From Clostridium sp. (GTDB lineage Bacteria; Bacillota; Clostridia; Oscillospirales; Acutalibacteraceae): a DNA stretch of 64,000 nt. Both the position numbers and the translations under genes were made by a program. The notes beneath the pieces were generated by a model. That model did no database searches. It had not been told where the DNA came from and saw nothing but the letters and a program-made list of their open reading frames with translations. The first letter of the stretch is position 1. Each line of letters opens with the position of its first letter. The stretch lies in assembly GCA_031272895.1 (NCBI GenBank), contig JAISSW010000008.1, positions 1-64,000 of the forward strand. Direction: 5' to 3'. Of the stretch, positions 9,749 through 10,910 are shown one piece after another.

Positions 9749-9777
9749 TTGACAAAAGGCTTGCAATGGTATATAAT
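9749..9777 (+). promoter_or_regulatory. Perfect-consensus SigA promoter upstream of the sigma factor gene
   Basis: TTGACA 9749-9754, 17-nt spacer, TATAAT 9772-9777. Confidence 0.85.
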
Positions 9778-9808: not shown

Positions 9809-10372
9809 ATGCTGGTTTTGTCTGATGAGGAGCTTGCGCGGCTTGCGGCAACAGGCGACGACGGTGCCATGGCCGAGCTGATTAAGCGTATGGAGCCGCT
9901 TGCCAAGGCAAGGGCTGCGGCTTTCCCTGATTTGCCCGTTGGCAAGGACGACCTGTTACAGGAGGGTATGCTTGGTTTTTTAAGGGCGGTGCGCACCTAC
10001 AACCCTAAAAGCGGAGTCCCCTTCAAGTCCTATGCGGCGGTGTGCATTAAGAACGCCATACTCTCTTCGGTGCGCAGCCTGCTGACGCAAAAGCGCGCGC
10101 AGGACGGCTATACGCTGTCGCTTGATGAAATTGCCGCGCAAATCCCGGCGGCGGACGGTCCTTTCGAGGAGCTTGCCGGTGCGGAGGTCAAGGCTGAGCT
10201 TAGGGATTTCGCAAGTAAAAGGCTTTCCGGAATGGAGCGTGAGGTTTTTACCCAAAGGTTAGAGGGTAAAACGCAGGGAGAAATTGCCCGCTCGCTGGGC
10301 ATAAGCCCTAAGGCAGCGGATAACACGCTGCAAAGAATCCGCCGCAAGCTGCGGCAAGCAGGCTTTGGCTGA
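9809..10372 (+). CDS. RNA polymerase sigma-70 family factor (SigH-like)
   Basis: KDDLLQEGMLGFLRAVRTYNPKSGVPFKSYA region 2 motif and C-terminal helix-turn-helix. Confidence 0.85.
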   Translation: MLVLSDEELARLAATGDDGAMAELIKRMEPLAKARAAAFPDLPVGKDDLLQEGMLGFLRAVRTYNPKSGVPFKSYAAVCIKNAILSSVRSLLTQKRAQDGYTLSLDEIAAQIPAADGPFEELAGAEVKAELRDFASKRLSGMEREVFTQRLEGKTQGEIARSLGISPKAADNTLQRIRRKLRQAGFG

Positions 10373-10405
10373 TTTTAACAGCCGCGGCAAACCAATCAAA
10401 TATAT

Positions 10406-10471
10406 GCCCACGTAGCTTAAAAGCAGAGCGTTGTTAAGGCAAAGGTTTCGGTGCGAATCCGACCGGGGGCA
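10406..10471 (+). ncRNA. tRNA-like element with truncated anticodon arm (not a canonical tRNA)
   Basis: Acceptor GCCCACG/CGGGGGC (one mismatch), T8-A9, D-stem GCTT/GAGC, T-arm TCGG-TGCGAAT-CCGA; only 16 nt between D and T arms; no encoded CCA. Confidence 0.45.
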
Positions 10472-10497
10472 ATATTCTTTTCCAAGCGAGGTCAACC

Positions 10498-10782
10498 ATG
10501 TTCGAAGACAAGACCCTCACCTGCCGCGACTGCGGCGCGGAATTCGTGTTCACTGCGGGCGAACAAGAGTTCTATGAGCAGCGCGGTTTCACCAATGAGC
10601 CGAAGGCCTGCCCGGCGTGCCGCAACGCACGCAAAGCACAACGCCGCGGTGACCGCGGTGAGCGCGAGATGTTCGAAGCAGTATGTGATTCCTGCGGCGG
10701 CACAGCGCGCATCCCTTTCCGTCCTTCCGGCGACCGTCCGGTGTATTGCAGCGATTGCTTCAGCAAGCAGCGCGAAGGCTAA
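10498..10782 (+). CDS. Treble-clef (zf-trcl-like) zinc-ribbon protein
   Basis: CRDCGAEFVFTAGEQEFYEQRGFTNEPKACPACR plus second CDSCGG...CSDCF pair. Confidence 0.8.
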   Translation: MFEDKTLTCRDCGAEFVFTAGEQEFYEQRGFTNEPKACPACRNARKAQRRGDRGEREMFEAVCDSCGGTARIPFRPSGDRPVYCSDCFSKQREG

Positions 10783-10875: not shown

Positions 10876-10910
10876 AAAAAAGGAGCTGCCGCAGGGCAGT
10901 TCCTTTTTGT
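10876..10910 (+). terminator. Intrinsic terminator downstream of the zinc-ribbon gene
   Basis: AAAAAGGAGCTGCC-GCAG-GGCAGTTCCTTTTT. Confidence 0.8.

Follow-up and report, generated by a model that had tools for sequence, protein, structure and literature searches.

A conserved anticodon-less tRNA-like leader of a zinc-finger gene in Clostridia, probably derived from a sigH-linked tRNA-Thr gene

In a 64,000-nucleotide (nt) stretch of DNA from a Clostridium sp. of the Acutalibacteraceae (contig JAISSW010000008.1, positions 1 to 64,000; the window), a short tRNA-like element lies between a gene for a SigH-like sigma factor (sigH) and a zinc-finger gene of the zf_Tbcl family (zf). The locus comprises the following features:

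9749..9777, + strand: sigma-70-type promoter TTGACA-17-TATAAT, with 12 of 12 consensus matches
9809..10372, + strand: SigH-like sigma factor gene, the upstream operon partner (Pfam Sigma70_r2, r4_2)
10402..10405, + strand: ATAT leader abutting the first nucleotide of the element (G1), a proposed ribonuclease P (RNase P) recognition and cleavage site, from base conservation across copies
10406..10471, + strand: tRNA-like element (RF00005 39.4 bits, covariation, source tRNA)
10484..10491, + strand: Shine-Dalgarno (SD) region with GCGAGGT core (GAGGT kept in 17/17 aligned leaders)
10498..10782, + strand: zf_Tbcl gene, 94 amino acids, two treble-clef zinc fingers (PF13451 82.7 bits, PF23477 70.2, TIGR04272 69.5)
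10877..10908, + strand: terminator-like hairpin, a 14-pair stem followed by a T-rich tail, which would close the transcript

The best NCBIfam match of the sigma gene is spore_sigH, under that model's cut-off. The element starts 33 nt past the sigma stop codon and ends 26 nt before the zf ATG (10498). No second promoter-like site was found on the + strand between 9600 and 11000, and so none between the sigma and zf genes; the promoter at 9749..9777 probably drives sigH, element and zf, which are likely to share one transcript. A small hairpin often occurs between the sigH stop and the element (10365-10405 in the window, 45 nt upstream in homologues; mean fold z -1.22, with 53% under -1), and may serve either as a weak terminator or to shield the 3' end that a cut would leave on the sigH message.

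The element is laid out as a tRNA. The acceptor strands GCCCACG (10406-10412, G1 being 10406) and CGGGGGC (10464-10470) form six of seven pairs, with an A5-G68 mismatch, and are followed inwards by TA (U8-A9) at 10413-10414, a D-arm at 10415-10429 (stem GCTT/GAGC), an anticodon remnant of 12 nt and three base pairs (bp) at 10431-10442 (TTG-TTAAGG-CAA) and a T-arm at 10447-10463 (loop TGCGAAT at 10452-10458), whose fifth stem pair (T-C) is open in the window copy. The discriminator A at 10471 precedes AT, without an encoded CCA; 84/90 element copies have A at position 74. A first-pass annotation, made from the letters of this DNA, had already given the sequence and its coordinates, the acceptor pairing, the T-loop, the missing CCA and the distance to the ATG as we find them. 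It was also right about the compact anticodon region, but not about the 16 nt that it placed between D and T arms, since D-stem and T-stem are 17-18 nt apart.

End to end, the element matches the Rfam tRNA model RF00005 with 39.4 bits (gathering score 29; E = 8.5e-5 over all 4227 Rfam families and the whole window). This tRNA match is the only Rfam match in the window, and the antiterminator and specifier loop of a T-box are absent from the element. It is the lowest of 24 tRNA-model matches in the window genome, true tRNAs scoring at least 52.6 bits; CCA is encoded in 23/23 true tRNAs found there, and ARAGORN called no tRNA at the element. It thus has the cloverleaf match of a functional tRNA and lacks the 17-nt anticodon arm with a 7-nt loop and the encoded CCA.

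When 60 related genomes were searched at the DNA level, 18 had a match, the window's own included and one (L018) matching by chance over 23 nt; with the exception of L015, the true homologues all lie upstream of the same kind of open reading frame (ORF). A covariance model seeded from the element (R1), as the first-pass annotation had proposed, was run on 218 genomes of the window's order, Oscillospirales, and its best matches lie 32-51 nt before PF13451 matches in all 57 cases that could be compared among the matches listed; true tRNAs appear in this search as 74-76 nt matches with ~43 bits or less. Two further orders of Clostridia carry the element (in 6/7 genomes of the first and in a single family of the second), as does the named isolate Caproicibacter fermentans EA1. 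Outside the class the element was not found in the phylum-wide search, where every match listed measures 73-76 nt and the ones examined proved to be genuine tRNA-Thr. A zinc-finger ORF (PF13451/PF23477) lies 22-45 nt downstream in 89/90 distinct copies. In the sole exception (L015, from G009) the element is well formed and the ORF starts MYEER and has no zinc-finger cysteines, possibly through gene replacement or because the gene is broken.

The fold is conserved together with the gene. In an alignment of 17 sequences not fitted to structure, both sides change in 7/19 pairs (17 cells compared to 6.7±2.3 when shuffled), and in a model-fitted alignment of 93 distinct rows, up to four being genuine tRNAs, both sides change in 16/19 pairs (204 cells compared to 68±6.5 when shuffled, and to at most 48 when the partner strand was slid). 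Covariation spans all four arms and includes the three pairs of the anticodon remnant (UUG/CAA, CUG/CAG and others). The elbow is retained as well: a D-loop G goes with C56 (54 + 16 concordant and 13 + 7 discordant copies, p 2e-5) and GG with U55 (13/14 versus 13/76, p 7e-8), so that the elbow states are concordant for both G19/C56 and G18/U55, with an incomplete contact in a minority of copies. Conservation and arm covariation upstream of orthologous zinc-ribbon genes, which the first-pass annotation had named beforehand as the test of its proposal, are hence both present and, as judged by comparing sequences, the element is real, conserved and not due to chance. The length of the anticodon arm ranges from 4 to 60 nt around a 3-bp core, which suggests that it is a free site. 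Longer helices or inserts of up to 60 nt take its place in L095 (197-311, a long insert), L065, L126, L017 and L046.

Elsewhere in the order the element is reduced to acceptor and T-arm (e.g. L089, L092, L110), and in L106 and L115 the leader has shrunk to a GCCC/GGGC hairpin before the SD. Such erosion, like the loss of anticodon arm and CCA, is what a functionless, decaying tRNA pseudogene would undergo. Neutral decay, however, would not keep compensatory changes in 16/19 pairs across three orders, nor the leader before G1, the elbow and the spacing to zf; these contradict the pseudogene reading and make it very improbable.

Synteny points to the source of the element. In other Clostridia the locus behind sigH reads sigH–tRNA-Gly(CCC)–tRNA-Thr(GGT)–tuf (the elongation factor Tu, EF-Tu, gene), and in the carriers L141, L142, L147, L243 and L244 it reads sigH–tRNA-Gly(CCC)–element–zf; the element therefore occupies the place of the sigH-linked tRNA-Thr(GGT). 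With the anticodon arm excised, elements are closest to this tRNA among all tRNA groups (similarity 27.0, versus 18.8 to the carriers' other tRNA-Thr(GGT) genes elsewhere), the tRNA comparison set being uneven, which makes synteny the stronger argument. In several genomes the sigH-linked tRNA-Thr(GGT) begins at its 5' end with exactly the GCCCACGUAGCU of the window; the window genome itself, at only 86% completeness, showed no tRNA-Thr(GGT). tRNA-Arg, or tRNA-Phe by way of a similar acceptor, had been considered as the source and was dropped once the synteny was seen. The element and the sigH-locus tRNA-Thr(GGU) are alike in position, acceptor (GCCCAYG), D-arm, T-arm and elbow positions, whereas the element has no decoding arm or CCA, has A and not U as discriminator, and is part of the zf_Tbcl leader. 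We conclude that it is very probably a domesticated sigH-operon tRNA-Thr(GGU) gene, which lost its anticodon arm and CCA, kept the rest and became the fixed leader of zf_Tbcl. The first-pass annotation had spoken of a decayed tRNA retained for another purpose or a tRNA-mimic leader regulating the downstream gene: the retired tRNA and the tRNA-like leader both stand, with regulation as a possible role. The source tRNA, the sigH operon context, the elbow covariation and the AUAU bases before G1 are additions to that annotation.

How such a leader might act was considered from its context. The duplex between element and SD (-6.12 kcal/mol) is weaker than in shuffles (-7.10), the SD being free and not complementary to the element, which rules out a translation-type riboswitch that sequesters the SD. 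Control of zf by threonyl-tRNA synthetase (ThrRS) or another tRNA enzyme, as at E. coli thrS, would accord with descent from tRNA-Thr and with the retention of G1-C72 in 77/90 copies and of C2-G71 in most. Yet the anticodon, the main ThrRS determinant, is lost, zf is not a synthetase gene and the SD is not sequestered, so that we regard sensing of this kind as quite improbable.

The element follows the sigma gene. A SigH-like tail lies upstream of 75/87 element copies, versus 50/95 in the comparison (p 1e-6), and the element is less frequent before zf genes that have a promoter of their own (p 2e-4). In the zf genes with their own nearby promoter the predicted leader has a hairpin at its very start (+1 to +5) in 14/14 cases, and these hairpins are unrelated in sequence to one another in several lineages; such convergence suggests selection on a structured 5' end. 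The bond to one gene family could also mean that zf_Tbcl, or some other elbow-binding protein, recognizes tRNA-shaped RNA, this leader included, and so sets translation or mRNA stability of its own gene. A protein of this kind would contact the elbow and the acceptor end, and a basic linker joins the two zinc fingers of zf_Tbcl. However, RNA binding by zf_Tbcl finds no support in its AlphaFold2 model (fair quality; mean predicted local distance difference test score, pLDDT, 84; predicted template modelling score, pTM, 0.44), which had no match in the PDB at E <= 0.001, and searching the PDB with the sequence gave nothing informative. Moreover, zf_Tbcl genes of other groups mostly have other leaders, and the substitution of plain hairpins for the element fits a general structural role better; we consider autoregulation unlikely. 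A different leader, seemingly conserved, occurs ~130 nt before the zf_Tbcl ATG in another Clostridia group (L183, L205, L213, L221), with motifs such as CCCTCCGGTGGTGT in L183/L221 and TGGAAACCCACGACCAAGTGACTTCAGC in L205/L213 and no matching Rfam family.

The sequence before G1 is itself conserved, with AUAU in 47/90 copies (U-1 in 77/90, A-2 in 69/90, A-4 in 71/90). U-1 and A-4 occur together in 65/90 elements compared to 27/88 true tRNAs of the same genomes (p 4e-8), which have the same leader preference in weaker form. B. subtilis RNase P favours U-1 and A-2, and bacterial RNase P is sensitive to the D-loop/T-loop contact and accepts hairpins of acceptor and T-arm (PMC4919922). U-1, A-2, G1-C72 and the loop contact are all found in the element. 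The ATATAT before G1 is unlikely to be a -10 element, as the start would then fall within the covarying acceptor strand. RNase P is implicated because the element keeps the parts that this enzyme reads, having lost one that is dispensable to it, and because it tracks adjacency to sigH, and thus a need to separate two messages. On this evidence, RNase P would read the fold in the sigH–element–zf transcript and cut between AUAU and G1. The cut would give sigH and zf separate messages, the latter with its 5' end buried in a tRNA-shaped stem and presumably shielded there from RNase J-type enzymes, whose attack depends on the 5' end. Taken alone, this mechanism (cut at G1, message separation, 5' protection) has in our view about an even chance of being correct. 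Sequence comparison shows the fold, its origin, the tie to zf and the motif before G1, whereas the cut, the capping and any effect on mRNA lifetime are inferred.

RNase Z scored above its cut-off in 1/36 genomes, with a second, near-full-length match just under it, and in G000 and 34/36 related genomes it is missing or represented by weak metallo-beta-lactamase matches only. Its scarcity is consistent with the encoded CCA of all the tRNAs found in the window genome, and makes release of the element by RNase Z unlikely. If the element were excised on both sides, it could work as a small RNA of its own, tRNA-like but lacking an anticodon, such as a decoy for tRNA enzymes, and zf would be a mere neighbour; the self-contained tRNA fold, the RNase P-like leader, the discriminator-like A and the A-rich stretch next to it would suit such a product. 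Against it stand not only the near-absence of RNase Z and the lack of an encoded CCA but also the tight spacing to the zf start and the fact that, except in L015, the element was not seen apart from zf; we hold a free RNA to be improbable. Since RNase Z is mostly lacking and there is no CCA, the element would rather remain in cis on the zf mRNA and cap it, without release of a small RNA.

The best overall explanation would accordingly be a domesticated tRNA leader that is cut by RNase P and remains as a cap, to which we assign a probability of about 0.52, and processing of the mRNA and protection of its 5' end are better backed by the evidence than regulation through a ligand or the SD. Several observations weigh against it. 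Energy-only folding of the window element does not favour the cloverleaf (z = -0.41), so that the evidence for the fold is comparative, and the reported p-values and shuffles take no account of relatedness among copies. Acceptor position 5-68 is mismatched in most copies, and the 3' RCCA end, which helps bacterial RNase P without being universal, is not encoded. The AUAU motif could have another reader, and many sigH-adjacent zf genes have no element.

Parts of this scheme have precedents. In mitochondria, t-elements and tRNA punctuation rely on intergenic tRNA-like folds as marks for RNase P and RNase Z to cut polycistronic RNA (PMC8003010). The element resembles them in how it would work, as a tRNA-like fold between sigH and zf at an mRNA end, but is bacterial, confined to one gene family and of known source tRNA; with RNase Z mostly absent, the mRNA should retain the fold. 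In E. coli, RNase P is described as cutting polycistronic messages and also riboswitches (Alifano 1994; Li and Altman 2003; Altman 2005, all cited through PMC4919922 and PMC11143913). The proposed cut is like these in that RNase P acts on non-tRNA folds within operon messages, whereas the element has a complete tRNA-like fold that three orders have retained. To our knowledge, none of the E. coli operon sites is a conserved descendant of a tRNA. The E. coli thrS leader mimics the tRNA anticodon arm and controls a synthetase gene; it is likewise an mRNA leader imitating a tRNA, but the element has lost exactly the arm that thrS imitates. In B. subtilis cggR-gapA, RNase Y cuts near a plain stem-loop and the downstream mRNA gets a protective 5' stem, an intergenic cut and protection like those proposed here, except that the proposed cutter is RNase P acting on a tRNA fold.

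Our searches of the open-access literature turned up no description of this element, nor of any conserved leader in bacteria that stems from a tRNA gene. Its passage from tRNA gene to cis mRNA element is documented with intermediates: the sigH–tRNA-Gly–tRNA-Thr–tuf locus, forms keeping the GG/UUC elbow beside an intact tRNA-Gly, the anticodon-less form, and the minihelix or hairpin. Because the element matches the tRNA model, RNA-motif searches could easily mask it or set it aside as a supposed tRNA pseudogene, and similar elements may hide elsewhere. Tentatively, at somewhat less than even odds, we see here a tRNA gene turned into a dedicated cis mRNA leader from which RNase P makes a tRNA-shaped cap, a mitochondrial type of punctuation in a bacterial operon with one arm amputated. 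The element offers an entry to the widespread zinc-finger family zf_Tbcl and a direct test case for whether RNase P shapes bacterial mRNA 5' ends as a conserved function.
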